Source: Pseudohongiella sp.
GTDB taxonomy: Bacteria; Pseudomonadota; Gammaproteobacteria; Pseudomonadales; Pseudohongiellaceae
Length of the DNA: 33,862 nucleotides
NCBI GenBank assembly: GCA_013204155.1
Contig: JABMOK010000068.1
Coordinates: forward strand, 1-33,862
Direction of reading: 5' to 3'
Shown piece after piece: positions 8,183-29,978 of the stretch. Under the pieces are notes generated by a model that saw nothing but the letters and a program-made list of their open reading frames with translations, made no database searches and was not told the DNA's origin. Position numbers and translations under genes: made by a program. Position 1 is the first letter of the stretch. Every line of letters starts with the position of its first letter.

Positions 8183-9121
8183 TTATCCTTGTTGTGTAAC
8201 AAACACCAGGTAAACCCCATAGCCGGATAACAGAAAAACTCCTTCCATTCGACTCACGCTGAGACCGCTCCATGCCATGGGAAGCAAGAGCAAAGAGAAC
8301 AGCAGCATGATGACAAAATTCTGTAATACAAATTGATCTCCATTGATGCTGATGATGAGAGAAGAGACGCCCAGAATGCATAAAATATTAAACAGATTGG
8401 AGCCGAGAATATTACCAATCGCTATATCCGACTGTTTTCTCCAGGCGGCTACCAGGGATGTGGCTAACTCGGGAATACTGGTCCCAATGGCAACCACCGT
8501 GAGGCCCACGACCGCCTCACTGACTCCAGCCAGGGTCGCTAAAATAATCGCATTGTCCACAAATACCTGGCTTCCAAACACCAACAGTGCAATGCCTGAG
8601 ACGATGGCAAGTATGTTCAAGCTGGCTCCGCGGGCGAATATTTTGTGTGTTGTTAACACGCTGGATTCGGTCTCAGCCTTGGCCTGAACGTAATTAAAGC
8701 CGAGATAGGCGAACAGACCACTGCTAAGGATAATCCCGTCGAAGTAACCGAGTTGTCCATCCAATAGCAATAAGCCCATCAGTAGTGTGCTGGCGATTAG
8801 CAAGGGGATTTGTCTGCGCACCAGTTGTCGTTTAATTCGGATAGGGTGGACGAGCGCGGTTAGGCCGAGTATCAGGCCAATATTGGCGATATTGGATCCG
8901 ATTATATTGCCAAGCGCCAAGTCGCCATGGCCTGTAGTGGCGGACTTCACGCTGACAGCAAGTTCCGGCGCACTGGTGCCGAAGGCAACAATCGTCAAGC
9001 CTATTATCAGCGGAGATATGCCATACCTGATCGCGAGTTTGCTACTGCCACTCACCATCAGTTCCGCACCGATGCCCAGTAGCACAAATCCACAGAACAG
9101 GAAGAGAGTTGGAGTCAGCAT
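8183..9121 (-). CDS. CaxA/YrbG-type calcium/sodium antiporter
   Basis: The 312-residue product is an inner-membrane Ca2+:cation exchanger of the CaCA superfamily. It has the two inverted alpha-repeats: GLTIVAFGTSAPELAVS with GNIIGSNIANIGLILG in the first half, and GLTVVAIGTSIPELATS with GNILGSNLFNILCILG in the second. The ion-coordinating Glu and Asn of each repeat are present (PEL, GSN). About ten hydrophobic helices are visible. It starts 21 bases after the stop of the MDR oxidoreductase gene and probably shares its transcript. Confidence 0.95.
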   Translation of the reverse strand: MLTPTLFLFCGFVLLGIGAELMVSGSSKLAIRYGISPLIIGLTIVAFGTSAPELAVSVKSATTGHGDLALGNIIGSNIANIGLILGLTALVHPIRIKRQLVRRQIPLLIASTLLMGLLLLDGQLGYFDGIILSSGLFAYLGFNYVQAKAETESSVLTTHKIFARGASLNILAIVSGIALLVFGSQVFVDNAIILATLAGVSEAVVGLTVVAIGTSIPELATSLVAAWRKQSDIAIGNILGSNLFNILCILGVSSLIISINGDQFVLQNFVIMLLFSLLLLPMAWSGLSVSRMEGVFLLSGYGVYLVFVTQQG

Positions 9122-10157: not shown

Positions 10158-10247
10158 TACTCGGGCTGTTTGCCGTTCGGGAAAGGTTTGTCGTTCTGAA
10201 AAGGTTTGTCGTTCTGAAAGTGTTAGCGGTGCGAAAAAAGTTTGTCA
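10158..10247 (-). repeat. Five 18-bp tandem units from the TRAP permease stop codon to the next gene's leader
   Basis: Reading the minus strand, five units run head to tail: TGACAAACTTTTTTCGCA, CCGCTAACACTTTCAGAA, CGACAAACCTTTTCAGAA, CGACAAACCTTTCCCGAA and CGGCAAACAGCCCGAGTA. The first begins with the TGA stop of the TRAP permease and the last ends four bases before the ATG of the MDR gene. The array therefore fills the whole intergenic space. The unit keeps the permease frame, where the other units carry CGA, CGG or CCG in place of the TGA. Confidence 0.85.
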
Positions 10248-12260
10248 GTTGCTCGTAGCCGCAATCGATTTTGCATGTCGATTTTGGATGACGACCACGG
10301 CGATCAACAGTGCCGCGCCGATAAAATGGAAAACCATCGGAAAGGGTGCCCACATGAGTAGAATTGCGCTGAGCAATAGTATGCCGGCGATAAGCCAATT
10401 AATTTTTTCCTCCAAGTGCCATTGTAAAATACCGGCCATGGCATACAGCCCCATGCAGGACCAGATAAACACTTCGATACGTTCCGGCCAGGTTCCGGAT
10501 ATCAATGGCGAGTAGGCAAATAACACCGGCACCAGATACAGGCCCTTGGCAACCTTCCAGCTGGTCAATCCAGTCGCCATCGGTCGGGTACCGGCAATCC
10601 CAGCGGCGGCAAAGGCGGCTAGACAGACAGGCGGAGTCACATTGCTGTCCTGTGATAACCAGAAGATGATCAGATGCGCACTGAGTAACATGCCAGTGAG
10701 CATTTCAGGGTCGAGCAGTTCCTGCCGAATAAGCTGTTTCATCTCCAGCGGCATTTCCTGCAAGGCTATCAACGGATCGCCGCCAAACAGCCCAATCGTA
10801 GCCGTCACATTGGAAGGCAGATCTCCCGCCTGCAATGCTACCAGTAGCTGCGATTGGGTAATCAGATCAAAAATTAGCGGCGCCGACAGCGTGGCTAAAA
10901 CAATATAGGAGGCAGTTACTGGCAGGCCCATGCCTAATACCAGCGAAGCCAGAGCGACCAGAATTAGAGTGATCAGCAGGCTGCCCTGAGCCCAGTCCAC
11001 AATCATTAGGGAGAAAGCATTGCCGATGCCGGTGGTGGTCACCACGTTAATGATAATGCCCACTGCTACCAGCAGCAGGGCGGTGGAGACCATGGTTTTT
11101 ACCCCGTCCACCATCGCATCGAAAATATCGGCGGGTCGCATGGGATTGGGGGAAAGCCATGACGCGCCAATGACACTGAGAATAGCAAAGGCGGCCGATG
11201 TTGTGGGTGTGCGACCGGATACGAGAAACCCGACCAGCACAGCCAACGATATAATGAAGTGCCAGCCTTCTTTCAATACGGTGATTACCGATTCAGAATT
11301 CTCATCATGGGTAGGGTTGAGACCAAGCCGTTTTGCTTCGATACGAACGAAGTAAGAAACGGTCAGAAAATAAAGAATGGCGGGTAAAGCCGAAGCCGCA
11401 ATAATCGTTAAGTAAGAAATTTGTGTATAACTGGCTAATACAAACGCGCCGGCACCCATTACCGGTGGCATCAAGGCGCCGCCAGTGGATGCGGCGGCAA
11501 CCACGCCAGCAGAAAATTGCGCATTGAAACCGGATTTTCGCATCATCGGAATAGTTATAACGCCGGTGGAAACCGTGTTGGCTACAGCGGAGCCAGAAAC
11601 TGATCCCATCAAACCGGAACCCACCACGGCGACCAGACCGGCACCACCGGTATAGCGTCCTGCGAGGCACTGGGACAGCTTGACGATAAAATCACCGGCT
11701 CCGGAACGCAGCAGGAAAGAGCCGAAGATAATGAACATAAATACAAAGGTGGAAGAAATTTGTGCAGTGAGTCCAAACATACCTTCGCTGGTAAAGAAGC
11801 TTCGATACAGCACAGTCTCCAGGCTTAATCCCGGAAAGGAGAACACGCCGCCTATATATCTTCCGAGGAATAGAATATAAGAAAGAGAGATCAGAATAAG
11901 CGCCGGCATAAACCAACCGGTAGTGCGCCGGGTAAATTCGATGGCCAGACCAATGGCAATTAGCGAGAACACATAATCACTCAGAATATATTCAGTCTCT
12001 CTGGCATACAGCGCATTCTCGAATAGAATTAAGTAGGCTGTGGTGAGTATGGCAACGACCGCCAGGGCGACATTTACCCAATAGCCGACAGACTTTGTGG
12101 ATACCTTGTCTGATTCATTGGTCATCAAGGCGCAGATGGCACAGAAACCACCGAAGTGAATGGCGGATAACCATAATTCTGAAATACTGGAAAACACATT
12201 GCAGTAGATGTGGAACAAGGCAAAGAAAAAGGCAGCCCATCTTAAGTATTTTGATTTCAT
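10245..12260 (-). CDS. TRAP transporter fused permease (DctQM-type), TAXI class
   Basis: The 671-residue product is a single-chain TRAP permease in which the small (Q) and large (M) subunits are fused, as is common for TAXI-type TRAP systems. The first roughly 150 residues form a Q-like four-helix part. The M part carries GSGLMGSVSGSAVANTVSTG, ASTGGALMPPVMGAGAFVLA and later VLGMGLPVTASYIVLA and SQDSNVTPPVCLAAFAAAGIAG. These transporters import organic acids driven by a Na+ or H+ gradient. It lies nine bases after the receptor gene, and AAGGAG is positioned ten bases before its ATG within the receptor's last codons. Its stop begins the 18-bp array. Confidence 0.95.
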   Translation of the reverse strand: MKSKYLRWAAFFFALFHIYCNVFSSISELWLSAIHFGGFCAICALMTNESDKVSTKSVGYWVNVALAVVAILTTAYLILFENALYARETEYILSDYVFSLIAIGLAIEFTRRTTGWFMPALILISLSYILFLGRYIGGVFSFPGLSLETVLYRSFFTSEGMFGLTAQISSTFVFMFIIFGSFLLRSGAGDFIVKLSQCLAGRYTGGAGLVAVVGSGLMGSVSGSAVANTVSTGVITIPMMRKSGFNAQFSAGVVAAASTGGALMPPVMGAGAFVLASYTQISYLTIIAASALPAILYFLTVSYFVRIEAKRLGLNPTHDENSESVITVLKEGWHFIISLAVLVGFLVSGRTPTTSAAFAILSVIGASWLSPNPMRPADIFDAMVDGVKTMVSTALLLVAVGIIINVVTTTGIGNAFSLMIVDWAQGSLLITLILVALASLVLGMGLPVTASYIVLATLSAPLIFDLITQSQLLVALQAGDLPSNVTATIGLFGGDPLIALQEMPLEMKQLIRQELLDPEMLTGMLLSAHLIIFWLSQDSNVTPPVCLAAFAAAGIAGTRPMATGLTSWKVAKGLYLVPVLFAYSPLISGTWPERIEVFIWSCMGLYAMAGILQWHLEEKINWLIAGILLLSAILLMWAPFPMVFHFIGAALLIAVVVIQNRHAKSIAATSN

Positions 12261-12269
12261 GAAAGCTGT

Positions 12270-13286
12270 TTAAACTCCTTCCGGTGGTTCTTCGAGAATG
12301 AGTCGCTCGGGTATCTCGAGCCCGACTTCACGATAGTAGCGAATCGCACCAGCGTGTAGCGGTGCGCCGAGGCCTTCGATTGCGATTTCAAGACGCATGT
12401 CTTTAGTAGCGCCATGAATTTCTTGCAGCGTTGCCAAATTTTCCCATATAACTTTTGTAATGTTGTAGACCACTTCTTCAGGGATGTCGTCACGAGTAAC
12501 CAAAACATTGGGTGACGCGATAGTGCGTATTAGCTCGGCTTGGTTGGGATAGGTGTTCGGCGGGAATTCATACCAGTCCCACAGGGGATACCGGGCATTT
12601 AGCTTGTCCATTGTCTCCTGCGTCCAGTTCAGGATTGTCATGCGATCACCAAGTAAGGCATAGGCTTGGGTAATAGAACTGACTGGTGCGCCCGCCGGGA
12701 TATTCATGCCAACGATGTTGCCATCCTGTAGCGCGCTGGTAGTTGGGCCATAACCCATATAGGCCAAATTAAATTTATTTTCGTAATCGATGCCCAGCGT
12801 CTGCAGAATAAATCTGCCGGTCTGATCGGCGCCGGAGTTTCTTGCGCCAAGTACATAACGATCGCCGTCGAGATTATCCAGATCCATGATCTCGCCAGTG
12901 CTGGCCAGTTCGCTAAGCAAGACGAAATGTTCAACATTTTGCCACAGTGCACTTACGCTTCGCATATGGGTCTGGGGGCTGCTTATCGGGCCTTCGCCAG
13001 CCCACGACCAGGCGCCGAAAGGCCCTTGCAGGATGGCAAATTGCACCTGATTGTCGCGCAGCAACTTCACGTTTTCCAGCGAGCCTGCCGAGCTAATCGC
13101 GGTCAGGGAAATTCCTTTAGTGGCAGCAAGCTGAGCGTGGGCGATAGTGGCAATGGCAACACCCACCGGATAATAAGTGCCACCGGTAGTGGCGGTGGTC
13201 AGTATATAAGGTCGGGCACGGGTTAATTCATCGCTACAGGAAACCAACAGGATAGACAGAACAAGACTAACGACGACATTTTTCAT
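12270..13286 (-). CDS. TAXI-family TRAP substrate receptor, predicted lipoprotein
   Basis: The 338-residue product is the solute-binding subunit for the adjacent fused permease. The TAXI family core is visible: LTTATTGGTYYPVGVAIA near residue 30, ISSAGSLENVKLLRDNQVQFAILQ, and GARNSGADQTGRF. The N-terminus is a lipoprotein signal, MKNVVVSLVLSILLVSC, with the lipid Cys at 17, so the receptor is probably tethered to the inner membrane instead of diffusing in the periplasm. The substrate is unknown; TAXI receptors are often tied to glutamate or C4/C5 acids. No clear Shine-Dalgarno precedes the ATG. Confidence 0.93.
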   Translation of the reverse strand: MKNVVVSLVLSILLVSCSDELTRARPYILTTATTGGTYYPVGVAIATIAHAQLAATKGISLTAISSAGSLENVKLLRDNQVQFAILQGPFGAWSWAGEGPISSPQTHMRSVSALWQNVEHFVLLSELASTGEIMDLDNLDGDRYVLGARNSGADQTGRFILQTLGIDYENKFNLAYMGYGPTTSALQDGNIVGMNIPAGAPVSSITQAYALLGDRMTILNWTQETMDKLNARYPLWDWYEFPPNTYPNQAELIRTIASPNVLVTRDDIPEEVVYNITKVIWENLATLQEIHGATKDMRLEIAIEGLGAPLHAGAIRYYREVGLEIPERLILEEPPEGV

Positions 13287-13514: not shown

Positions 13515-14366
13515 CTAGTTGGTCGTTTGTGGTGGATTAAACCGTATCGCTCGACCAATACCACGGCCTCCCTGTGCAGGCCCGCTTCTGAGGATTAATC
13601 CCGGGTTGCCACCAGGGCCTATGCCACTGGTAAATGTACTCGTGCTATTTTGCTTTTGTTGTTCGCTCTGAAATTCGGCGAACGCGTCCAGCTCAGATTC
13701 GCTGAGCTCATAGGCAAGCGCTTCCCGCTGGGCTTCGGGGCCCATAATTGCGCGCATCTGAAACCGAACGTCGCGTCGATCCACATCCGCTGGCAGAGAC
13801 TGCATTTCCAGAGCCAGGTCCATGCGCGCCTGATTCTGATCGGCAATTAAATTGTCCAGAGCGCCGACAATCACCTCCATGCGCTCGTCACTGACATTCA
13901 GTGATTGCAGGAAACCACCGAACTGCCCTTGCAGCGACATCAGTTCGCCCAACTCGACAGGGTCGAGCGCGGCCAATTGTTTGAGCAGATTTACTCTGGA
14001 GTTTGCATCGGAGTTTGCATCGGAGGTGGCGGACTGTTGCTGCATTTGGCTACTGAGTTGTTGTCGAATTTCATCTTCCAGTTGCTGATAGTCGGGATTA
14101 AGCTGTTGTTGGGATGTTTGTAGTTGATTGGAGAGGGCGGTGAGTTGGCTATTGCTGGTTGTCAGCTGGCTTTTCAAATCCTGAATCTGCTTTTCAGAGT
14201 CCAGCCGTCGCCGGCTATTACTTTCTACTTGCGACAGCAGCTGTGTCACTTGCCGCTCGTAGTCCACCAGTTGTTGCTGTAGCAATTTGCTTTTCTGCAG
14301 CGAATTAAAGGCAAATATCCCGCCGGTACAGAACACTAAAAAGGCGATGACAATAATGGCTTTCAT
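13515..14366 (-). CDS. Membrane-anchored periplasmic coiled-coil protein, unknown (paralogue 1)
   Basis: The 283-residue product has an N-terminal hydrophobic helix (about residues 3-21), then a Gln-rich coiled coil to about residue 110. A helical globular part follows, with GELMSLQGQFGGFLQSLNVSDERMEVI and ELSESELDAFAEFQSEQQKQ, and a Gly/Pro-rich tail. It is the last gene of the seven-gene run, two bases after the small membrane protein's stop. Another gene in the window (24016-25029) has the same layout and similar motifs. A 12-bp duplication at 13999-14022 gives DANSDANS at the end of the coiled coil. I do not recognise a named family. Confidence 0.8.
   Translation of the reverse strand: MKAIIVIAFLVFCTGGIFAFNSLQKSKLLQQQLVDYERQVTQLLSQVESNSRRRLDSEKQIQDLKSQLTTSNSQLTALSNQLQTSQQQLNPDYQQLEDEIRQQLSSQMQQQSATSDANSDANSRVNLLKQLAALDPVELGELMSLQGQFGGFLQSLNVSDERMEVIVGALDNLIADQNQARMDLALEMQSLPADVDRRDVRFQMRAIMGPEAQREALAYELSESELDAFAEFQSEQQKQNSTSTFTSGIGPGGNPGLILRSGPAQGGRGIGRAIRFNPPQTTN
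13999..14022 (-). repeat. Perfect 12-bp tandem duplication inside the coiled-coil gene
   Basis: GAGTTTGCATCG occurs twice in direct succession on the plus strand and encodes a duplicated Ser-Asp-Ala-Asn on the minus strand. The copies are identical, which suggests a recent event. Confidence 0.75.
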
Positions 14367-14368
14367 AC

Positions 14369-14614
14369 TTAAGATTTCTTCTTATCTGCACCCAATGTGT
14401 CATTCACATGACCGGACAGGGGTTTCTCTTCTTCCAGTTTGCCGATCAACAGTATCGCGCCAACAAAAATGGCGGCGATAGTAGTAATGCCGAATATCAG
14501 CACAATGCGAAAGAACATTTCGATGTAGACGCCACTCAAGTAGAAGACCAGTTCGGCGATCAAATTCACCAGTACCAGGGAGATGCCGAATGTTATCCAG
14601 ACCGCGTGCTTCAT
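14369..14614 (-). CDS. Small membrane protein with two transmembrane helices, unknown
   Basis: The 81-residue product has two strongly hydrophobic stretches (about residues 6-28 and 34-58) separated by a short loop, then a charged tail with KLEEEKPLSG ending in KKK. It is coupled tightly to the next gene (two-base gap) and sits in the run that starts with the ABC transporter. The coupling supports it being real despite its size. It may be an accessory subunit of the membrane part of that system. Confidence 0.7.
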   Translation of the reverse strand: MKHAVWITFGISLVLVNLIAELVFYLSGVYIEMFFRIVLIFGITTIAAIFVGAILLIGKLEEEKPLSGHVNDTLGADKKKS

Positions 14615-14669
14615 GCGTAATTATCCCTGATGAGATGGATGGCAGAGTGATGAATTCGTCCGAATTCAT

Positions 14670-16376
14670 TCACTTCGAGAGTAACAGTATTCCCTCAATG
14701 TGACTACTGTCGATGTTGGTAAACACAAACACATCGTCCAGCCCGTCAGCATTCAATTCGGCGGGGATGATGTCGCCTTCAACAAGCTCTGTGTTGAGGT
14801 CGATGGAGATGTCGGCGACTTGTCCCTCGACACGCGCTGACAAGGCATTGCCGTTCACCGAGATGTTTTCAATGATATCGCGAATATTGATTTCGTAATC
14901 ATTTCGCTGTCTGCTGTAATCCAGGGAACTGAGAATCATATCCGTATCAACTTCCTCTGAACTTTCCGAGCGGATGGCATTGAGAAAAATTTCCAGCTGA
15001 TTATTAACCAGCATCAATAGGTCCTCGCCATCAAGATTGGCATCGAGGTTGGCGGTACTGGTAGGGATCGGGGCGCCGCCCTCGCTGTCTCTTACTTCTC
15101 TGCTAAGCTCAGTGAATGAGGTGGCCAATCTGAGAACCGATGGAAACTTCAAATTAATAGTCAATTTTCGAGTGGGCCGGCGAGAAAATCGATCACCCTC
15201 ATTGGGGTAAATAAAGGCCTCTATAGCCACACTGCCTGACAATGCCAGCCAGATAAAAATATCACCCACGGATATGGGTTCTACCCGCCACAGCCAGAGA
15301 TCTTTCAGACCATCTTCATTTTCATCGTAGAGAAACGTGCTAAGTACATTGCCGCCCGAGCGCAGGACTTGACGAGGTTCGTCAAAATCCATACCCCCGG
15401 CGGTGCCGCCATACAGTGAAACCTTGCCCCCTTCTCTAAGCAGCAAGTCTTCGATGTTATCACCATCGATGTCCTCGAGAATTTCCTCATGAGTCAGCGA
15501 TAACAGGCCCGTCAGGTTTGAGAAGTCCAGAGAGTCAAAATCAAATTCGCCCAGCCTTGCTTCAATCTCGGCTATGTCGAGTGAATAACTGGGGGCCGCA
15601 GAAAAGTATTTCTCTGCAGTATTATCGGCAATAAAGACTTCCAGTTTCTCTTCGCTGCGAGAGATCAAGTCATCAAAGCCATCGCCGTTTACATCGCGCA
15701 AATTCATCATGGGAATTCTTATGGATTGCCCGGTTCGACGTTCCAATTGATCCGAATTGAGATTGGTTCGCATGCGAATATCTGAGCTAACACTCAAGCT
15801 GGGTTGATAGCTTCGTTCCTCGTGGTTTTCTTCAGCGCTGCGAATGTAAAGATTGAGTAGGCCAGCGCCCGGAACAATCAAGTCTTCCAGGCCATCCCCA
15901 TTGACGTCTCGAGAAAAATGCAGACGATTGATTCCCTTGGTGAGAAATCCATCCAGGCCAGTCTTGATTACTTCGGGGTCCTGTATGGATTGATCCTTGA
16001 TGTGCCAGACGAGGATTTCCTTGCCGTCGATGAGTGCAATAATTGATGCGGATGGTTTTTTCTGCAAGTTCGGTGGGCTGTAGGCGGTGCTTAAATTCCA
16101 GCCAACCGCCTCGCCGGGAAATTGCAGCTGATCAAAACCTGACGCAAAATCAAAACCGTTTTCATTTTGAAAATAGATCGAAACCTTGTTATCGACTATG
16201 ACTATTAATTCTTGCAAGCCGTCCCCGTTGGTATCGGCGATAAGCAGATTATCGGTCTGGGCAGGAAACTGAAATGCTTGTTGGCTAAAGCTGAGTTCTG
16301 CTGCCGACAACGGCATCGATTGCCAGACTGGCAGAATAAAAATCGCACATCGGTAGAGTTGGCGCAGGTTAATCAC
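14670..16376 (-). CDS. Exported FG-GAP/VCBS beta-propeller protein (second of the pair)
   Basis: The 568-residue product carries a signal peptide (MINLRQLYRCAIFILPVWQS, cleavage likely after the Ala of PLSAAE) and at least seven Asp-rich calcium-loop repeats. These include DTNGDGLQELIVI, DVNGDGLEDLIVP, DVNGDGFDDLIS, DIDGDNIEDLLL, DENEDGLKDLWLW and ELNADGLDDVFVF. Such FG-GAP/VCBS repeats fold into integrin-like beta-propellers. No RTX export signal, anchoring motif or enzyme domain is visible, so it is probably periplasmic or released. Its ATG overlaps the stop of the first propeller gene by ATGA, so the two are translated together. Confidence 0.9.
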   Translation of the reverse strand: MINLRQLYRCAIFILPVWQSMPLSAAELSFSQQAFQFPAQTDNLLIADTNGDGLQELIVIVDNKVSIYFQNENGFDFASGFDQLQFPGEAVGWNLSTAYSPPNLQKKPSASIIALIDGKEILVWHIKDQSIQDPEVIKTGLDGFLTKGINRLHFSRDVNGDGLEDLIVPGAGLLNLYIRSAEENHEERSYQPSLSVSSDIRMRTNLNSDQLERRTGQSIRIPMMNLRDVNGDGFDDLISRSEEKLEVFIADNTAEKYFSAAPSYSLDIAEIEARLGEFDFDSLDFSNLTGLLSLTHEEILEDIDGDNIEDLLLREGGKVSLYGGTAGGMDFDEPRQVLRSGGNVLSTFLYDENEDGLKDLWLWRVEPISVGDIFIWLALSGSVAIEAFIYPNEGDRFSRRPTRKLTINLKFPSVLRLATSFTELSREVRDSEGGAPIPTSTANLDANLDGEDLLMLVNNQLEIFLNAIRSESSEEVDTDMILSSLDYSRQRNDYEINIRDIIENISVNGNALSARVEGQVADISIDLNTELVEGDIIPAELNADGLDDVFVFTNIDSSHIEGILLLSK

Positions 16377-17944
16377 GGTATGGCCACCAAAAGTGTAGTC
16401 GTCGTGGCATGTTTAAGTAATAAATCCGGATAGGCATCGGCGTTTAGTTGCAGCACCTCAAACTCAAAAACAGTTCTAGCCGAGATGTATTCCCAAAAAG
16501 GCTGATCGGCAATACCCAATTGGGCATCGATTTTCTTGGCCGCCAGTGTGCCATTATCGGTTATATACAGGGCATCTTTGATGCCGTCTCCATCGACGTC
16601 ATACGCAAGTGACATCTGTTGCACCAGGCCGCGAACATTGCTCGCTGAGAAACTATCCTCTTGTCGTGAATCGGGACGTCTATTGAATAACTGTCCGGCT
16701 TCTTTGGCATCGCTGCCATATAACAACGATGTCCGGTTTATGCTGGCATTGCGCAGGGCATCCACCACCGGAATTGTGTAGAAGTTGACATTAAGCACGG
16801 GTGCGCCATCGTCTTGAAGAGTCAGAAAATTGAGACGAACATCGTAACCAGAGAACCGCATAATTTGATTCGGCTGGGCGAGATCGAATTTACCCTCTTG
16901 ATTCAAGAATAGGCGTGCATCCCATTCGTCGCCATCGCCGCTCAGTCGTAGCAAGTCCACCCGTTGGTCCTGATTCATGTTGGCCAACCGGATATCACCT
17001 CGGGTCTCTATCGAGCCGGTCCAATCGGCCTGTTCGCTGAAGCCAGACTCCCGGTCCTGGTAGTGAATATTCAATTGACCGAGGCCATCGTCACCGACAT
17101 TGAGATACACGACATCCAATAATTGATCATCGTTGAGTTGGGCCAGTATTACCGAAGGCATCCAGCGTTCGCTGCGCAACAGATTTCTCGGTTCAGATTC
17201 CTGCTCTCTCCATTGTTCAATCAGACCGTCAAATGCGGAGTTATACTCTCTGGAAATATCGACAACCAAACCTTGTTCGGCGTTGATGCTGATGCTTGCA
17301 TCGACACCCTCATCACTCCCCTGCCTTTGCGTTTGCGGCAGGTTTTTATTAATGCTGGAGAAGGTCGACACCCGTTCGAAATTCTCGGCGCCGTCTCCCT
17401 TAAAGAAACCAAATATTTCATCACCCGGCAGCAACAGATCCACATCGCCATCACCATCAATATCGCCGATATTGTCTACGAATTGCACCTGTTCCCGATC
17501 GGGGATGGTGGCGATCAGATCCCATTGCAGTAGCGGTTTGAGATTTCCCCCATAGCCTTCGATTGCCGAAGAAAGGCTAAATACACCACTGTTGGCGAAC
17601 AGCAGCAGCTCCTTTCCTGGCTCCGGCCGTAGATCCGCAAATCCCACGGCTATGATCTCGGTTTTAATTTCGATGTGCTGGGGCGAGGCGCTGAAGCTGC
17701 CATCGGGGGCTTGATGGTAGACAAGCAATTCTCTGCCAATACCCGGCTGATAGTGTGCGTGCACAATGTCTTTAGCACCATCGCCGTTAAGATCGACGGT
17801 AACCAGCTGCTCCCAGTTATCCTCTCGTTCCAGCTCAAAGGCGACATAGTTGGACTGGGACAGTACCGACATCGGTGAAAGTGAGAGCAGGAAAAACACC
17901 AGGCGGGTGCTAAGCGGAAATAATTGTTGCGCGGGATAGTTCAT
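16373..17944 (-). CDS. Exported FG-GAP/VCBS beta-propeller protein (first of the pair)
   Basis: The 523-residue product begins with a signal peptide ending near residue 29 (SVLSQS) and contains repeats with the calcium loop DxNxDGxxD: DLNGDGAKDIVH, DIDGDGDVDLLL, DVDGDGIKDALYI, with weaker copies QLNDDQLLDVVYL, NMNQDQRVDLLRL and LNADAYPDLLL. It is a propeller-type protein like its neighbour but not a close duplicate, since the sequence between loops differs. It follows the PDZ lipoprotein gene by eight bases and overlaps the second propeller gene by ATGA. The partner or ligand is unknown. Confidence 0.9.
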   Translation of the reverse strand: MNYPAQQLFPLSTRLVFFLLSLSPMSVLSQSNYVAFELEREDNWEQLVTVDLNGDGAKDIVHAHYQPGIGRELLVYHQAPDGSFSASPQHIEIKTEIIAVGFADLRPEPGKELLLFANSGVFSLSSAIEGYGGNLKPLLQWDLIATIPDREQVQFVDNIGDIDGDGDVDLLLPGDEIFGFFKGDGAENFERVSTFSSINKNLPQTQRQGSDEGVDASISINAEQGLVVDISREYNSAFDGLIEQWREQESEPRNLLRSERWMPSVILAQLNDDQLLDVVYLNVGDDGLGQLNIHYQDRESGFSEQADWTGSIETRGDIRLANMNQDQRVDLLRLSGDGDEWDARLFLNQEGKFDLAQPNQIMRFSGYDVRLNFLTLQDDGAPVLNVNFYTIPVVDALRNASINRTSLLYGSDAKEAGQLFNRRPDSRQEDSFSASNVRGLVQQMSLAYDVDGDGIKDALYITDNGTLAAKKIDAQLGIADQPFWEYISARTVFEFEVLQLNADAYPDLLLKHATTTTLLVAIP

Positions 17945-17952
17945 TGTCAGTG

Positions 17953-18930
17953 TTAATTTTCTTCTTCGGTAAGTTCGCCAAGGTCACTGGTGATACTAAT
18001 TAGACCCAATAAACTGTGAGATCGTTCACTCCCACTTCGTTGATAACTATAAAAAGAGAATAACCAGAAATCCAATACAGAAAGACTGTTGCTGACCGGG
18101 CTTAAGGAAGATTCATACTGCAATAAGGGCCCCAATGCTATTCGGCTAATTCGCCTGCCAGGATTCCATAAGCGCAGAGGAATCTGCGTAATTGACTGCG
18201 AGCGATATACCCCGAGCGTAACGCGATCACCAAGGGCAAAGTCTTGATTCAAACGCGTAATCAAATCCTGTGCCGAATTCAATTGATCACCATTAATAGA
18301 AAGAATCAGGTCGCCTACATTAATTCCGGCCTCTGCAAGTGGGCTCTCGGGGAATAACTCAACTACCCTGGCTGCCGCTAGCTCTGCTTGATTGCGCACT
18401 GTCAGCATTTCGGTACGATAGCCGGCTCGCGTCGCCAGCGGATCGATTCTGTAGAGTTCTTGAGGCGCCGCATTACCAGCAATTAACCGAGCGATCACCG
18501 TGGCCTCAAAAACCACGGTATTGCGTCTTAGCTTGAAGTTAAATGCGGTTTCCGCTTTGCTCTGCTGCTGTAGGGCCATTACCACGTCCGGGTGATTGGT
18601 CGGCGTATCGTTAATACTAAGGATGACGTCTCCAAGCTGAATTCCTGCTGAATCGGCGGCGCCATTGGCTGTGACATTACGCACTCTCACCCCGGGCAGA
18701 ATTTCTATATTTGTCAGTGAGTCGCTTTCATTGAGACTGAGGTCCAGGCCAAAGTCGAGCCTCGAATTGCTTGCAGAGTTAGTGCTGATTAAACCGGGTT
18801 CCTCGACCGACATATTCAATGGGGGAACCAGTATCGAAGGCTGGTAACTGACACAGGCCTGTAATAACAATATCCCTGGCATACACAGACGCGCCGTTAT
18901 TCGCAAACTAAGCGCTAGCAGACTCATCAT
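17953..18930 (-). CDS. Lipoprotein with two PDZ domains
   Basis: The 325-residue product has an N-terminal lipoprotein signal ending in GILLLQAC (Cys26). PDZ 1 is about residues 75-150, with GVRVRNVTANGAADSAGIQLGDVILSIN (read in parts), and PDZ 2 about 185-260, with PLAEAGINVGDLILSINGDQLNS. No protease domain is attached, so this is a binding or scaffold protein rather than a DegP-type enzyme. PDZ domains bind protein C-termini. Its ATG overlaps the permease stop (ATGA), which ties it to the ABC transporter. It probably works in the periplasm. Confidence 0.88.
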   Translation of the reverse strand: MMSLLALSLRITARLCMPGILLLQACVSYQPSILVPPLNMSVEEPGLISTNSASNSRLDFGLDLSLNESDSLTNIEILPGVRVRNVTANGAADSAGIQLGDVILSINDTPTNHPDVVMALQQQSKAETAFNFKLRRNTVVFEATVIARLIAGNAAPQELYRIDPLATRAGYRTEMLTVRNQAELAAARVVELFPESPLAEAGINVGDLILSINGDQLNSAQDLITRLNQDFALGDRVTLGVYRSQSITQIPLRLWNPGRRISRIALGPLLQYESSLSPVSNSLSVLDFWLFSFYSYQRSGSERSHSLLGLISITSDLGELTEEEN

Positions 18931-19784
18931 ATTTTTCTCCGCTGGACTATCACTATTATCAGAGCAAGAAATATTAGTAGCGCGGGTAAAGGCACCCAGG
19001 TATTCAGTTGTTGAACGCGCTCATCGATTAATACGTCGGAGTATCCACGTACCAGACGACTCACATCCTGCAAATAGGATTGATCGATCAGGGATGGTTG
19101 GAAACTGGCATAGATATAGTGTGAAAAATCACCCAATAAGCCTTTAAATATATCTATCGCCAGAGTAATTCCCAGGGCGGTGGTGATTGCCTGCGTGGCA
19201 GATTGTGCCGAGACCGAGATTAATAGTCCGAATGCTATGGCGGCAGGGATCGGGTAGATGGCGAGCAGCAATCCCAGTCGAATTTCTTGCAGGATTTCGG
19301 CTTCGCTGATTAGCTCGAATCCGTCTTCAACAACGGGAGCGAATTGCCAAAATAATCCGCTTAAGCCGTAACTCACTAGAACCAATAATAGTAGCGAGAG
19401 TACAGCGAGAATATGCAGGTGGATTAATTTCGCCGTAATCAGACTGGTCCTGCTTATGCGCCTAATCAGCAAGTGCCTTAGACTGCCAATGTCTCGTTCA
19501 TAACTGAAACTGTAGGCGGCTTGTGCAACTAAGAGTAAACCCAGCATGGTCAGGCCGGTGCTCAGGCCATCGACATAGTAACCATAGGCATTACTGGCAA
19601 TGGCATCATCGAAGTTGGAATTGCCCAACAAATTATCCCGGGCCTGCTGCCCCGTCTCGGTGATTTTTACGATCAGGATTTGCAGGAGTACCAGCAGCGC
19701 AGGAGCAAATACGATAAATTTGCTGGCAAAGGTGCGCAAGGCGACGAAAATTTCGGATCGGACAGCGGTTAACAGGCCATTCAT
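18927..19784 (-). CDS. ABC-2 type transporter permease
   Basis: The 285-residue product has six hydrophobic helices in the ABC-2 pattern: one near residues 22-40, then a periplasmic segment, and five more from about 75 to the C-terminus. The conserved cytoplasmic element SYERDIGSLRHLLIRRISR lies near residues 93-112. The family includes exporters of drugs, lipids and polysaccharides and the NosY/GldF type. It overlaps the ATPase gene and the PDZ gene by ATGA on each side, so all three are translationally coupled. Confidence 0.92.
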   Translation of the reverse strand: MNGLLTAVRSEIFVALRTFASKFIVFAPALLVLLQILIVKITETGQQARDNLLGNSNFDDAIASNAYGYYVDGLSTGLTMLGLLLVAQAAYSFSYERDIGSLRHLLIRRISRTSLITAKLIHLHILAVLSLLLLVLVSYGLSGLFWQFAPVVEDGFELISEAEILQEIRLGLLLAIYPIPAAIAFGLLISVSAQSATQAITTALGITLAIDIFKGLLGDFSHYIYASFQPSLIDQSYLQDVSRLVRGYSDVLIDERVQQLNTWVPLPALLIFLALIIVIVQRRKI

Positions 19785-20689
19785 GTCGCGGCCTCGCTGG
19801 TAATCTCGCGGAACAGGCTGGCAAGCGAGGCGCGTTTAAGAATCATTTCCGAGACGGGAATTTGCTGTTCTACCAGTAAGCGATTAAGCGTCGCCGAATC
19901 AATCTCATCAATCGATAGTTGTAAATAATCGGCTTCATCGCGGCTTAGAAGTTTGACCTTGTCGGTTTGTTCAATTACCGCCAGCGCCTGTTCTATGCAC
20001 CCGGTTTTCAAAAGAACGGTAGTGCTGCTTTGCGCTAACAAACTGGCCACAGTATCACTGACAGCGATGCTGCCCTTGTGCAGGATGGCTATATGACTGC
20101 ATATTTGCTCAAGATAAGGCAGTTGATGGCTGGATAAAAGAAATGCCGTTCCTTCCTCCTTGTTCAAGGTGGTGATGAGCTGCAGTACATCATCGACGCC
20201 TTCGGCATCGAGTCCGTTAAAGGGCTCGTCGAGGACTATGATTTCTGGCTGTCCGATCAAGGCGTGAGCAATAGAAGCACGACGTTTGTTACCCAGAGAG
20301 AGATGTTTGATCTTGAAATTGCTGAAGCGAGCGATACCCAGTAGCTGTTCAACTTCTGTAGCACAGCGGACCGGTTTTTCACACAGCAGTCTTGCCTGGT
20401 TGAGACATTGGCGTACGCTCAGGTTGGGGTGAAGACTGGCGCTATCGAAGATAGCTACCAGCTTGCCCCTGGCCTGGTGCAGTTGATCAGGGGTATGGCC
20501 CAGGACTCTGATTTCGCCAGCATTAAAGGCTTGCAGGCCCAGAATGCATTCTATCGTGGTGGTTTTTCCGGAGCCATTAAGTCCAACAAGCCCATGAATC
20601 GATCCCCGCTCGATCTGCAGGTTCAGGTCTTTAATGACTTCAAATGAGCCATAGCTCTTGTTTAGTCCGGTAACGGATAAGGCGTGCAT
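19781..20689 (-). CDS. ABC transporter ATP-binding protein (partner of ABC-2 permease)
   Basis: The 302-residue product is the energising subunit. Walker A is GLNGSGKTT (36-44), the signature is LSLGNKRR (130-137), and Walker B is EIIVLDEP (149-156), followed by NGLDAEG and the H-loop SSHQ. The family-typical C-terminal extension (about 220-302) is present. It is the first gene of the seven-gene run, with a terminator-like hairpin upstream at 20715-20744, so its promoter should lie between that hairpin and 20689 unless transcription reads through from the protease gene. Confidence 0.94.
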   Translation of the reverse strand: MHALSVTGLNKSYGSFEVIKDLNLQIERGSIHGLVGLNGSGKTTTIECILGLQAFNAGEIRVLGHTPDQLHQARGKLVAIFDSASLHPNLSVRQCLNQARLLCEKPVRCATEVEQLLGIARFSNFKIKHLSLGNKRRASIAHALIGQPEIIVLDEPFNGLDAEGVDDVLQLITTLNKEEGTAFLLSSHQLPYLEQICSHIAILHKGSIAVSDTVASLLAQSSTTVLLKTGCIEQALAVIEQTDKVKLLSRDEADYLQLSIDEIDSATLNRLLVEQQIPVSEMILKRASLASLFREITSEAAT

Positions 20690-20830: not shown

Positions 20831-20926
20831 ATTGTTCCACGAGCAATTTAATCCACGAACAATTTAAGCCACGAACAATTTAAGCCACGAACAATTTAAT
20901 CCACGAACAGTTTAATCTACAAACAA
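20831..20926 (-). repeat. Six 16-bp tandem units copying the last codons and stop of the M16 gene
   Basis: On the minus strand the gene ends TTG TTT GTA GAT TAA A (Leu-Phe-Val-Asp-stop). This 16-base block is followed by CTGTTCGTGGATTAAA, TTGTTCGTGGCTTAAA (twice), TTGTTCGTGGATTAAA and a decayed TTGCTCGTGGAACAAT. The unit length is not a multiple of three, so successive copies fall in different frames. Confidence 0.9.
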
Positions 20927-23905
20927 GTCATCCACCTGGATTTGTTTGACCGTGCCGAATTGTTCCAGTTCCTCTTGATCGATGATAGAGAGGTCCCCAA
21001 CGATCGAGATTAGCTTGGGGCGCTGTCGTACGTGTTCTTGTTGGAAACTTAACAGATCGTCCATTTTCGCGGATTGCAATTGTTGGTAGCGCTCGCGACG
21101 AGGGTCGCCTTCGATGCCGAGCCGCTCCCAGCCTCGCACCGCACCGATTACCTGACGGAAATTGATCTTGGAGGTGCGATAGCGGTTTATCAGGGCATTT
21201 ACCGATTCGTCAAATCGCTCTGTGGAAGAGGGCATATTGTCGATCAGCTCGAGAAATGCGTTGAGGGCATCTACGGTCTTGTCAGTCTGGGTTCCGATGG
21301 ATCCCAGCATCAGATTTTCCGCATTCAGCCTTCCACCCTGGGAGTAGGCCGCCGAGGCGGAGTAGGCCAAGGCCCGCGCTTCTCTTAATTCCTGGAATAC
21401 TACGCTGGACATGCCACTACCAAAATAATTGGTATATACAGAGGACATAACACTGTCATCTTCGGTGTACTGCCCATCTGGAAATTCGATGCGAACCTGA
21501 GCCTGGGCAGTCTGTTGATCGACTACATAGATTTCGGTTTCATCAACGCTGCGCGCCGTGCGGAATCGATAGGCTGGCGTATCTTTCAGTTCGCCAGCAA
21601 TATCATGATGACGGCGCAACACGGTAACCAATTCTTCAAGCGGCATGGAGCCGGTATAGGAGAGGGTGTGTTTATAGTTTAATAGGTCAGCCGGCAGGGC
21701 GAGTAATTCATCCACAGTAGTCGCGCGAATCTCATCCCCTGTTAAGGCTTCGAGCATTGGTGATTCTTCGCCGTAACGGTTGTACATATACAGCGCTCTG
21801 GCGATAGCCGGGGGAGAACTCTTCTGGTCTTCTCTGGATTTCAACAGCAGACCTTTCATCTGCTCCAGGGTTTGCTCGTCAGTAACCGGGTTTTTTATCA
21901 GGTCGAGCATCAATGCCAGCGATGCTTCGAACTGTTCATCCAATCCTGAAATAGAAATTCCGGAAGAATTTTCACCGGCACCGAAACTGAAATCACTTCC
22001 TATCTGATACCAGCGTTTCTGTAACTCTTCGTTACTCATGCTTGGGGTGCCAGCCACATCCATCAGAGCCGCCGCCAAATTCAGTTTCTCATTTTCCTCG
22101 GTTCCAACTTCGACATTAATTGAAAAAGAGAACAGATCATTGAGTGGGTTCGGTGCGTAATAGAGATCCACACCATCGGCGAATTCGATAACTCGATAGT
22201 CTGTATCTACTGCAACGAAAGTCGGTTCGATTTCCTCATACGGCATCGTCAGGATTTGTGCTGCGAACGAAGATTGTCGCGTGGGGTCGATGCTGACGGC
22301 ATCAATCTGCGGCTTCTCTACTACCGGAAGATCAGCCGGGGCATCGATGCGATAAACGGCGACATAGTCGTTGCCAAAATATTTGTTGGCGACGTCAACT
22401 ACATCCTGTTTGCTCAATTGACTCATGCGCTCGATTGAAGCTACGGAATAATCCCAGTCAGCGCCTTCAATAAACGACTGGCGCATCATGCTGACTCTGG
22501 ACTGGTTAAATTCCTGACTGGCCTTCTCATTCTTTTTGAAATCATTAATGATGGCGGCGATGATCCAGTCTTCGAACTCGCCCGCTTTGATAATCTCAAT
22601 TTGATCCAGTAGTAACTGTTCAACTTCGGCGAGGGTCTGATCCTTCTTTGGAATGCCATACAGGGTTTGCGAGCCTGCATCATTGAGAAAGGAAGGTGAA
22701 GAGCCTGCGCCGGCAACCAGTTGTTGCTGATTAAGGTTCAGGTTGATCAGGCCGGCCGTACGGTTGTCCAGGATCATGTCTAAAAGGATCAAAGCTTCTT
22801 TGTCCTGGCTGTTATTTCCCGCCGTGCGGAAGGCCAGCTGTACTTGTTCTTCTCCCGGGTATTGCACGGTGGCTCTTTCTACACCTTGCAAGGGTTTTTC
22901 TTCCCAGGGACCTACTGCAGGAATGGGCTTGGATTCCCAGCGGGAAAATTTTTCGCTGATCAAGGCGATGGTTTCATCGATGTTGATATCGCCACTGATG
23001 AAGATGCCCATATTGTTGGGGACATAGTAGGTGTCAAAATACTTCTGAATGTAAACCAGAGAAGGGTTTTTCAGGTGATCAACGGTGCCGATGGTGGGTT
23101 GTTGACCATAGGGGTGGACTTTGTAGAGTATTTCATCGAGCGCGGTGCCGATGATGCGATCCTTATTATCCAGAGAGCGATTTTTTTCCTCATAAACCGT
23201 TTCCAGTTCCGTATGAAACAAGCGGAACACTGGATTCACAAAGCGGTCGGATTCAATTTCTGCCCACTGTTGCAGGCGATTTGATGGCAGGCCAACTTTA
23301 TACACAGTTTCTTCGTGCCAGGTGTGGGCATTGAGTGCAGAGCCACCCATGCTGTTGTACAGCTTGTCGATTTCATTTGGCACGGCCAGTTCGGCCGCTT
23401 GCTGGGCAACACTGTTAATTTCGGCGTAGATTTCGGCCCGTATGGCAGGATCGGTTTCACCATGGTGCTGTTCATACAGTGCGACTATTCGATCGAGATA
23501 GGGTTTTTCGGCGGCGTAATCCAGTGTGCCCAGGTGTTGATTGCCTTTGAATAACAGATGCTCGAGATAATGCGCCAGACCGGTGCCGTCGGCGGGGTCA
23601 TGTTTACTCCCGGCGCGTACCGCAATCTCGGCATAGAAGCGGGGTTCTTCATGGTTTTCCGTCAGATAGACTTTAAGGCCGTTGTCGAGCTGGAAAATAT
23701 GCGCGTCTACCGGGTCATTGTCATTCGCCCCATTGATACGACGATAGCCTAGGCTGTTGGCCGATGATTCAGCCAGTTGCGGCGGCTGCGCACTATTTTC
23801 GGTGCCTGTAGGGGTTCCATTGTCACTGCAGGCAACCAGCGCCAGCATGGCAAGAGGCGCCAGCAGAGTTCGCGTCCAGTTTTTCACAGTCAATAAATCT
23901 CTCAT
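20912..23905 (-). CDS. M16 family (insulinase/pitrilysin-like) zinc metallopeptidase lipoprotein
   Basis: The 997-residue product is a tandem M16 peptidase. The inverted zinc motif HYLEH (His112, Glu115, His116) lies in the N-terminal domain and the downstream zinc-ligand Glu is in ELETVYEEKN (235-240). A second, inactive M16 half follows, as usual. The start at 23905 is preferred over an in-frame start nine codons upstream: GGAG lies seven bases before it, and the sequence from there is a lipoprotein signal ending LALVAC (Cys26). The enzyme should be anchored in the periplasm or outer membrane and cut peptides or misfolded fragments. It follows the second coiled-coil gene by about 110 bases and ends in the 16-bp repeat array. 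Confidence 0.95.
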   Translation of the reverse strand: MRDLLTVKNWTRTLLAPLAMLALVACSDNGTPTGTENSAQPPQLAESSANSLGYRRINGANDNDPVDAHIFQLDNGLKVYLTENHEEPRFYAEIAVRAGSKHDPADGTGLAHYLEHLLFKGNQHLGTLDYAAEKPYLDRIVALYEQHHGETDPAIRAEIYAEINSVAQQAAELAVPNEIDKLYNSMGGSALNAHTWHEETVYKVGLPSNRLQQWAEIESDRFVNPVFRLFHTELETVYEEKNRSLDNKDRIIGTALDEILYKVHPYGQQPTIGTVDHLKNPSLVYIQKYFDTYYVPNNMGIFISGDINIDETIALISEKFSRWESKPIPAVGPWEEKPLQGVERATVQYPGEEQVQLAFRTAGNNSQDKEALILLDMILDNRTAGLINLNLNQQQLVAGAGSSPSFLNDAGSQTLYGIPKKDQTLAEVEQLLLDQIEIIKAGEFEDWIIAAIINDFKKNEKASQEFNQSRVSMMRQSFIEGADWDYSVASIERMSQLSKQDVVDVANKYFGNDYVAVYRIDAPADLPVVEKPQIDAVSIDPTRQSSFAAQILTMPYEEIEPTFVAVDTDYRVIEFADGVDLYYAPNPLNDLFSFSINVEVGTEENEKLNLAAALMDVAGTPSMSNEELQKRWYQIGSDFSFGAGENSSGISISGLDEQFEASLALMLDLIKNPVTDEQTLEQMKGLLLKSREDQKSSPPAIARALYMYNRYGEESPMLEALTGDEIRATTVDELLALPADLLNYKHTLSYTGSMPLEELVTVLRRHHDIAGELKDTPAYRFRTARSVDETEIYVVDQQTAQAQVRIEFPDGQYTEDDSVMSSVYTNYFGSGMSSVVFQELREARALAYSASAAYSQGGRLNAENLMLGSIGTQTDKTVDALNAFLELIDNMPSSTERFDESVNALINRYRTSKINFRQVIGAVRGWERLGIEGDPRRERYQQLQSAKMDDLLSFQQEHVRQRPKLISIVGDLSIIDQEELEQFGTVKQIQVDDLFVD

Positions 23906-24015
23906 GGTTAGTGCTCCGCGATAATCAAACAATTTTCAGTGGTCAAGATCAGAATGCGGTTAATGTAGGGCATTCTGGGTGAAAATGGTAGAGACGTCGC
24001 GATTAAGCGACGCCT

Positions 24016-25029
24016 CTATTGAGGTAGATCTGCAGCGCCTACCCGGGCCCGCATTACCGAGACGCGACCGCTGCCATCTGTGCTTGCTTCCAGTATTACG
24101 TCAACGCCGTTGCTCTGGCTTTGCAGAAAGCGATCCAATTGCGTCAGCTGTTCTGCATTCAATTCTCCCTGCAGACGATCTCTCGTCCTCTGGTAAGCGG
24201 CAAGTTGATCGTTGTACGCCGTTATCATGCTGCCATCGTCTGCTATCAGCGCAGCATAGTTGTTTTGCGCCGAGAACAATTCATCCAGCATGACTTGCAT
24301 CACCCGATCGTGTGAAGCACCACTGATGGCGCTACCAGATTTGGCAAGGCTATCACCGTAGATCTCATTAGCAGTTTCTTGCCGTATCAACAAATCGTAT
24401 TGATTTAGCTCTGCCAGTTGTTGTTCAGTCAGCATCTCTTGCATAGCATTGCCTAGCGCGTCAGCACCGAACAGAGAGCTCGCCTGCTCGGCGGCGATAC
24501 TGCCGTCGAGCAGGGCGCTTAGCCGCTGATTGCGCTCGCTCCCGAATTCAACCAGGGCCTCCATAACATCCAGCCTTTCGGTACCCGCTATGCCCAGGGC
24601 ATTGACAAAACTGCCATACATCTTCGGTATGCTATCCTCCGCGCGTGAGCGCGCCATTGCTGGATCGGAGAATGTGGAGAATGGAGATCCTCCAGCCGCG
24701 CTTCGTGCGGGCGAAGTTGCCTGCGCCGCTTCCAATCGGGCTTGTTCCAACAGCGCCGGGTATTGTGGATCAATCTGATCTCGCGCCTGTCGCAGTGCCG
24801 TGTTGAGGCTGGATATCTGGCTGTTAGTGTTGAGTAGCTGCGCTTGTAGATCGCGAATCTGTTGTTCAAATTCAAGACGTTGCAGGGTGCTCTGCTCAGA
24901 CTGTTGCTGCAGTTGGGTTTCAAATGTCATGGCTAAAGTCAGGCGTTGCTGCAGGTCTGAGTTTTGTATTTGCAAATAACTCAGGCCGCCAATCAGCAAG
25001 GCCGCTGCGATTATCAGGGCGAACTTCAT
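24016..25029 (-). CDS. Membrane-anchored periplasmic coiled-coil protein, unknown (paralogue 2)
   Basis: The 337-residue product opens with a hydrophobic anchor (MKFALIIAAALLIGGLSYL), then a Gln-rich coiled coil to about residue 105. An Ala/Ser spacer and a helical C-terminal region follow. The segment QIRDLQAQLLNTNSQISSLN followed by DQIDPQYPALLEQ parallels QIQDLKSQLTTSNSQLTALS followed by QQLNPDYQQLEDE in the gene at 13515-14366. The C-terminal halves diverge; this one includes GSERNQRLSALLDG and MLTEQQLAELNQYD, which resemble the ELSESELDAFAEFQSE helix there. It lies upstream of the M16 gene on the same strand. No named family is recognised. Confidence 0.8.
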   Translation of the reverse strand: MKFALIIAAALLIGGLSYLQIQNSDLQQRLTLAMTFETQLQQQSEQSTLQRLEFEQQIRDLQAQLLNTNSQISSLNTALRQARDQIDPQYPALLEQARLEAAQATSPARSAAGGSPFSTFSDPAMARSRAEDSIPKMYGSFVNALGIAGTERLDVMEALVEFGSERNQRLSALLDGSIAAEQASSLFGADALGNAMQEMLTEQQLAELNQYDLLIRQETANEIYGDSLAKSGSAISGASHDRVMQVMLDELFSAQNNYAALIADDGSMITAYNDQLAAYQRTRDRLQGELNAEQLTQLDRFLQSQSNGVDVILEASTDGSGRVSVMRARVGAADLPQ

Positions 25030-29192: not shown

Positions 29193-29231
29193 TCATCAAC
29201 TCTGTGATCGCTACCGTATCGAGAAAAGAGC

Positions 29232-29978
29232 ATGCCTGAAGCCAATTTAGTCAGCGCCGCGCCGGCAGTACCTGTTGCGAAAACTGGATCACCTATCGTG
29301 GCGCGGCTGGAGGACATTCGTAAGACATATTATATGGGTTCACTCTCTGTAGAAGTCCTGCATGGTATTAGTCTCGATTTCTACCATGGCGATTACATCA
29401 GCATTATGGGCCCTTCCGGCTGTGGCAAGTCTACCCTGATGAATATCCTTGGCTGCCTCGATCAGCCAACGGCGGGAAAATATTACCTGGGTGATGAAGA
29501 TACTTCGCAGATGGAAGACGATGAGTTGTCCACTATTCGTGGCGCTCGCCTGGGATTCATTTTTCAATCCTACAACTTAATCCAGCAGCTCAACGTATTG
29601 GAAAATATTGAAATGCCGCTGTTTTATCAGGGCTATTCTGCCGCAGAGAGTCACGAAATTGGTATGGGTCTCGCAGAGCGAGTGGGCCTGGCCGATCGGG
29701 TTGATCACAAGCCTTTTGAATTGTCCGGGGGGCAGCAGCAACGTGTCGCAATTGCACGCGCGCTGGCGGTCGATCCCTTGATAATTCTCGCCGATGAGCC
29801 TACTGGGAATCTGGATTCAAAGTCCGGGGCGGAAATATTAAATTTGTTTGATGAACTACATGATCAGGGTAAGACCCTGATAATGGTAACCCACTCCGAC
29901 GAACTGGCGGAGCGATCCCAGCGTTGGGTAAGACTGCGCGATGGCCTGGTAGAGAGTGATGACCGACATAACGCTTAA
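29232..29978 (+). CDS. MacB/LolD-type ABC transporter ATP-binding protein
   Basis: The 248-residue product energises the adjacent MacB-like permease. Walker A is GPSGCGKST (60-68), the Q-loop segment FIFQSYNLI near 110, the signature LSGGQQQR (164-171), Walker B LIILADEP (183-190), followed by TGNLDS and the H-loop TH. In MacB itself this domain is fused to the permease; here it is separate, as in many operons of this type. It lies 39 bases after the adaptor gene and overlaps the permease gene by 20 bases. Confidence 0.95.

Follow-up and report, generated by a model that had tools for sequence, protein, structure and literature searches.

Described systems in which an ATP-binding cassette (ABC) ATPase and its permease are accompanied by partner proteins include NosDFY-NosL and PedA1A2BC. 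NosDFY functions in the maturation of CuZ and NosL is a copper-binding lipoprotein (excerpts of PMC7660919), and in PedA1A2BC an ATPase, a permease and a YVTN propeller protein (PedA2) lie in one predicted transcript, PedA1 is predicted to be a substrate-binding protein, and the system is reported to be required for La3+-dependent growth (excerpts of PMC6839425). Here we describe a cassette of five minus-strand genes in a 33,862-nucleotide stretch of Pseudohongiella sp. (Gammaproteobacteria, Pseudohongiellaceae; hereafter the window, i.e. contig C46 of a 3.48-Mb assembly with 202 contigs and 94.65% completeness), which encode an ABC ATPase, an ABC-2 permease, a double-PDZ lipoprotein and two FG-GAP beta-propeller proteins (propellers A and B). 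The five genes form one conserved block that occupies different genomic places in two families and that one relative lacks as a whole. We read them tentatively as a five-part cell-envelope ABC apparatus, in which an inner-membrane engine would act on a periplasmic PDZ/propeller complex, an interpretation that is possible and falls somewhat short of probable; by analogy, its working principle would resemble that of NosDFY-NosL and PedA1A2BC, the partner proteins being different.

The five-gene cassette

A preliminary description of this DNA had recorded seven minus-strand genes at 13515-20689, and all seven open reading frames (ORFs) are indeed open there; its domain labels for the ATPase, the permease, the PDZ protein and both propellers were borne out by Pfam matches over the curated cut-offs. 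The genes of the conserved block are the following:

19781-20689, minus strand: ABC ATPase, core gene 1 (302 aa; Pfam ABC_tran, 94.7 bits; Walker A, Walker B and H-loop intact; signature LSLGNKRR)
18927-19784, minus strand: ABC-2 permease, core gene 2 (285 aa; Pfam ABC2_membrane_2, 39.1 bits; about 6 predicted membrane spans)
17953-18930, minus strand: double-PDZ lipoprotein, core gene 3 (325 aa; Pfam PDZ_2, 79.6 bits, two stretches; lipobox Cys26)
16373-17944, minus strand: propeller A, core gene 4 (523 aa; Pfam FG-GAP_3, 45.3 bits; N-terminal hydrophobic export-type segment)
14670-16376, minus strand: propeller B, core gene 5 (568 aa; Pfam FG-GAP_3, 58.1 bits; GTG start)

Three ATGA overlaps had been thought to join four of the seven genes. 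Three 4-base overlaps are present; the genes that they join are five, and the ATGA motif holds for ATPase/permease and permease/PDZ, the overlap of the two propeller genes being GTGA because propeller B starts with GTG. The gaps at the non-overlapping junctions of the seven genes measure 8, 55 and 2 bases, and in three relatives (L140, L145 and L154) 4-base overlaps join all five core genes (with start codons chosen by script).

Conservation, co-occurrence and absence of the block

Named species genomes were pattern-scanned with an alignment of propeller A (A1, which held locus L030 on the wrong strand and was used in that form), by which 107 relatives were confirmed and 80 loci kept. Loci without room for a given gene were dropped from its count, leaving 66 for the core, 63 for the upstream M16 metallopeptidase gene, 69 and 65 for two downstream genes (encoding a two-helix and a coiled-coil protein, respectively) and 55 for a downstream TAXI-type TRAP transporter (TAXI-TRAP). 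Alignments were built from 21 picked loci of the 80, with L089 omitted from A2, A4 and A5; L089 and L138, whose frames are short, were both left out when distances were tested and when the ATPase motifs were checked.

The conservation of gene order among relatives, on which the preliminary description had made its reading depend, was found without exception: the five core genes keep the order ATPase-permease-PDZ-propeller A-propeller B on the same strand in 66/66 loci, and since the loci had been located by propeller A alone, this order is not a product of chance. Among the related named records are Pseudohongiella and gammaproteobacterial metagenome-assembled genomes (MAGs) without classification, propeller A identity to the window ranges from 41 to 77%, and all five genes are present in Pseudohongiella sp. 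O18 (L154), the record of which is not marked as a MAG. Furthermore, one-sequence searches detected propeller A in 35 of the 36 other genomes of the genus (two matches being incomplete: G005, 200 residues at a contig end, and G021, split in two) and the permease in 34 of the 36, and neither of them in 21 genomes of the order's other families. The genomes without a permease match were G032 (73% complete; propeller A near the contig start) and G016 (89% complete), the latter also giving no match to propeller A or M16. Synteny within one family alone is nevertheless weak evidence of a functional unit, because TAXI-TRAP keeps its place almost as strictly (TAXI lies downstream in 51 of 55 loci).

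When 390 genomes of the order were searched with profiles of the permease and of propeller A (E 1e-6), both profiles matched the identical 15 genomes. Two of these (G659 and G731, family f219) carry the whole set with its order unchanged, at identities of 23-51%, and in approximately 20 kb around each f219 locus tblastn returned no match to M16, TAXI-TRAP or the two-helix gene (a short divergent gene such as the last could escape it). Judging by eye from the ORFs, one of these loci leads on to an S9-type peptidase gene and then to tilS-like and dnaE-like genes, and the other has different neighbours. Of 61 genomes sampled from f219, one gave a match to propeller A (1e-10), two others of the same genus being negative; the cassette looks rare in this family.

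The reverse situation is met in G509, a Pseudohongiellaceae genome with an estimated completeness of 100% that possesses both M16 and TAXI-TRAP. Its M16-to-TAXI-TRAP interval (L191) gave no match to any of the five cassette genes, the genes that come after the cassette in the sister genomes (L182 and L183) directly follow M16, and genome-wide searches with the permease and propeller A were without match. This absence may reflect either loss or a cassette never gained, and the interval, having the same flanks, is a useful natural comparison to the carriers. The draw also included a third genus (g294), whose three genomes yielded no permease or propeller A, and no M16 match at 1e-30.

The wider searches covered samples of genomes, and occurrence may extend beyond these. 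Propeller B among 369 genomes of the class (1e-8) gave its own match and a weak one (G062, an FG-GAP-type gene in a 3.6-kb stretch in which no ABC-2, PDZ or second propeller gene was seen by eye), the permease among 274 genomes (1e-6) its own and two weak partial ones, and propeller A among 299 genomes of the phylum (1e-12) only its own, the genomes named in that list being all of the same order. Carriage of propeller A on plasmids was rejected, as 72,556 plasmid records held no match at 1e-5. Four more distant relatives of propeller A (P0262, P0263, P0264 and P0265) have, by eye, a similar layout and share GREL-like, ADxRxEPG-like and late-blade RRP stretches; given this similar late-blade signature, the proposed machine may extend beyond the two lineages.

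Limits of the conserved unit

Three further genes adjoin the block:

14369-14614, minus strand: two-helix protein, lineage-specific accessory (81 aa; two hydrophobic stretches; no Pfam match over any family cut-off)
13515-14366, minus strand: coiled-coil protein, optional accessory (283 aa; N-terminal hydrophobic segment; likewise no Pfam match over any family cut-off)
20912-23932, minus strand: M16-family metallopeptidase, neighbour and not core (Pfam M16 domains; lipobox-like N-terminus by eye)

The preliminary description had counted the two-helix and coiled-coil proteins, as accessory parts, within its set of seven; a place for them in the core was not supported: only 19 of 65 loci have the coiled-coil gene downstream, which makes it optional, and the two-helix gene, present in 64 of 69, was not found at the second-family loci (accessory genes were counted by BLAST, which divergent short genes may escape). 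A unit of seven genes was rejected on these grounds, and the conserved unit is one of five (14670-20689). M16 lies upstream in 63/63 loci, at 4-7 bases from the ATPase gene in four (L131, L132, L150 and L155) of the 21 measured; it was rejected as a core part because G509 has it without the cassette and no M16 match lies near the f219 loci.

The ABC pair and the systems it resembles

Intact ATPase motifs, together with an ABC-2 permease domain over the Pfam cut-offs, place the pair in the ABC-2 transporter superfamily. Walker A, Walker B and the H-loop are intact in 22/22 aligned sequences, and in all 22 an Asp replaces the Q-loop Gln (an assignment read from the alignment), at a position where NosF has Glu. 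Lantibiotic-immunity ATPases, too, characteristically have an acidic residue there. NosF is also the best bacterial match of known structure (133 bits, residues 1-235; human ABCA3 scores 135.6), but 152 distinct ABC sequences match the ATPase at 1e-15. The best NCBIfam matches are DrrA (TIGR01188, 140.3 bits vs a cut-off of 312.45) and the gallidermin-type lantibiotic exporter ATPase (TIGR03740, 132.4 vs 309.75), the permease adds a weak MutE match (18.1), and the gliding ABC protein GldA (TIGR03522) reaches 113.7 bits vs 402.6. The permease has approximately 6 predicted spans (from hydropathy only), and in an alignment of 23 sequences from the two families 37 of its residues never vary; 21 of these fall among the 75 residues of the two predicted periplasmic loops (144-172 and 216-261), as compared to 16 among the 210 residues elsewhere.

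The drug and lantibiotic exporter matches, as well as the acidic Q-loop residue, would fit an ordinary ABC-2 exporter (of a lipid, a peptide or a small amphiphile) with which the PDZ protein and the propellers merely share an operon. We consider this explanation unlikely, since both matches fall far below their cut-offs and an unlinked role leaves unexplained why the block is kept in two families and absent as a block from one relative. LanFEG-type and DrrAB systems are not known to have PDZ or propeller genes.

The preliminary description knew of no named system with such a set of genes, and our searches agree: no family model of a named system in Pfam or NCBIfam was over its cut-off (for the ATPase, among the best 25 of its 187 NCBIfam matches), and the open-licence literature searched gave no description of the five-gene combination, which is not proof of its absence from the literature. 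With NosDFY-NosL the locus shares, besides the NosF match, an ABC pair accompanied by a partner protein and a lipoprotein (excerpts of PMC7660919). It differs in having a double-PDZ lipoprotein and two FG-GAP propellers instead of NosD and NosL. No NosD-type match was obtained at E 0.01 in Pfam or NCBIfam (NosD being a beta-rich periplasmic protein; the same 25 of 187 matches apply to the ATPase), the lipoprotein matches PDZ families only and no NosL-type one, and none of the window proteins scanned matches a nosZ-type family. With PedA1A2BC it has in common a propeller protein beside the ABC pair (excerpts of PMC6839425), from which it is set apart by a second propeller, by the PDZ lipoprotein, by the lack of a binding-protein family among the seven proteins and by propellers that match FG-GAP-type families and not the YVTN type. 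The best NCBIfam match of the permease is PedC (TIGR03861, 21.6 bits vs a cut-off of 241.35) and the third-best of the ATPase is the pyrroloquinoline quinone (PQQ)-dehydrogenase-system ATPase (TIGR03864, 122 vs 302.25). Because the defining partner proteins are without match and the PedC and system-ATPase scores are far below the cut-offs, the locus, judged by its sequence, belongs to neither system; the two are its closest working analogues.

The same PedC and PQQ-system matches, the DxDxDG-type loops of the propellers and the likeness to a propeller/ABC system needed for growth on La3+ (excerpts of PMC6839425) could also indicate an importer or loader of metal, in which a metal bound by the propellers, calcium or a lanthanide, would be moved by the ABC pair. 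This we hold to be quite improbable, given the low scores, the missing substrate-binding protein and the different propeller family; moreover, PQQ alcohol dehydrogenase matches do not separate genomes with propeller A (13) from those without it (6). As matches occurred in 19/19 genomes (in the search control in 1 of 14, none over the cut-off), a link to this enzyme was rejected as uninformative. A defence system was likewise rejected, since only the ATPase matches PADLOC models (5 families) and the other 6 of the 7 proteins have no match at 1e-5.

The PDZ lipoprotein and the propellers

The PDZ protein had been described as a lipoprotein, and a Cys at the lipobox position (Cys26, alignment numbering) in all 21 aligned sequences, including that of the window, sustains this. 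The residue that follows is V, L, I, A or T and never Asp in the 21 rows, and the absence of Asp after the Cys favours the outer membrane in lipoprotein sorting; the protein is probably lipid-anchored in the outer membrane, facing the periplasm. Its AlphaFold2 model (mean predicted local distance difference test score (pLDDT) 74.7, predicted template modelling score (pTM) 0.40) comprises two PDZ domains and a strand-rich tail of low confidence (261-315), and its top Foldseek matches are DegQ/DegP. Tandem PDZ domains are shared with HtrA/DegP, from which the protein differs in its lipobox Cys and its tail; no trypsin-like protease domain was found, only PDZ-type Pfam families match, and the HtrA/DegP matches in NCBIfam lie on the PDZ stretches, far below the cut-off.

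Both propellers contain FG-GAP repeats with Asp-rich loops of the DxDxDG type (in propeller A at 51, 161, 322 and 449), and they are paralogues (profile-profile probability 99.3%). The predicted fold, modelled for propeller B only, is that of a beta-propeller (AlphaFold2, pLDDT 80.1, pTM 0.72), nearest to the integrin-alpha, PVL lectin and KICSTOR propellers. Hydropathy places an unambiguous hydrophobic stretch at the N-terminus of propeller A, around residue 15.

Envelope quality control, in which the PDZ lipoprotein would bind the C-termini of misassembled proteins, the ABC pair would pull and M16 would degrade, is the least probable of the alternatives and appears very doubtful, since the constant upstream position of M16 (at times within a few bases) and the resemblance of the PDZ regions to DegQ/DegP are set against an M16 without cassette in G509, second-family loci without an M16 match nearby and the commonness of PDZ folds.

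Proposed mode of action

In the five-part apparatus that we tentatively favour, the ABC-2 engine would consist of the ATPase and the permease and sit in the inner membrane, the PDZ protein would be lipid-anchored towards the periplasm (probably in the outer membrane) and both calcium-loop propellers would be exported to the periplasm. ATP hydrolysis would move the permease, the conserved periplasmic loops of which would hand movement or cargo to the PDZ-propeller assembly, and this assembly may in turn capture, load or position a ligand. The set is without a substrate-binding protein, for which reason we favour an action that is outward or mechanical. Gene order, co-occurrence and the conserved predicted loops lead us to suppose that the ABC pair acts on the propellers and the PDZ protein. 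The intact ATPase motifs, the invariant lipobox Cys and the mutual correlation of the pairwise distances of the five genes (0.82-0.90) also speak for the apparatus.

Several points weigh against this interpretation. A conserved order and a joint absence demonstrate that the genes are a unit and not how they work, and in G509 the check for the ATPase, PDZ and propeller B genes covered the M16-TAXI interval. Export and outer-membrane location are deduced from N-terminal signals and general sorting rules, and the N-terminal hydrophobic segment of propeller B is weak (no hydropathy peak over the cut-off). The enrichment of invariant residues in the permease loops (Fisher p = 3e-5) assumes independent residues and a topology based on hydropathy, and the permease profile matched no PDB sequence, hence no kinship with NosY is evident. 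The mutual distance correlations of the five genes overlap the 0.68-0.87 found with M16 (propeller A-M16, 0.87). Moreover, the ATPase frame is interrupted in 2 of the 21 picked loci (L089 and L138), as are those of the permease and the PDZ protein in L089, which may be assembly error or gene decay.

A bolder form of the proposal, unlikely in our estimation, would be a new trans-envelope machine, in which the conserved periplasmic face of the ABC-2 pair would drive the double-PDZ outer-membrane lipoprotein and the sibling Ca2+ propellers, sending the energy of ATP through the periplasm so that a client there or in the outer membrane is positioned, loaded or released.

Surroundings of the cassette

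The gap between M16 and the ATPase gene measures 222 bases in the window vs 4 to 131 in 21 relatives, and 5.7 copies of a 16-base unit (consensus TCCACGAACAATTTAA) at 20836-20926 span the end of the M16 gene and part of this gap. The gene upstream of M16 (24016-25029) encodes a protein with a 93-residue coiled-coil match to the product of 13515-14366 (37% identity, E 3e-10); paralogues may thus bracket the M16-cassette block, or the match may stem from coiled-coil bias. Farther upstream, a divergent plus-strand set (25316-31320) resembles a MacAB-TolC exporter (OEP, a 741-aa HlyD-type protein, an ABC ATPase and a MacB-like permease).

On the other side, the TAXI-type TRAP transporter (10245-13286; NMT1_3 and DctM) is highly conserved (median identity 81% and 83%), and a sodium/calcium exchanger gene (8183-9121, 216.8 bits) lies near the calcium-loop propeller genes; of 20 related regions, several being too short to reach that point, 4 have a match to this exchanger. 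As a separate observation, genes resembling PQQ alcohol dehydrogenase are numerous in some of the genomes (at 1e-20, G000 has 30 matches, with six of those listed over the family cut-off, and G012 and G025 have at least 44 each).

Biological meaning

Propeller A occurs in nearly all other genomes searched within the genus. The cassette therefore probably has an important role in these bacteria, and it would add another architecture to those of ABC pairs with dedicated partner proteins.

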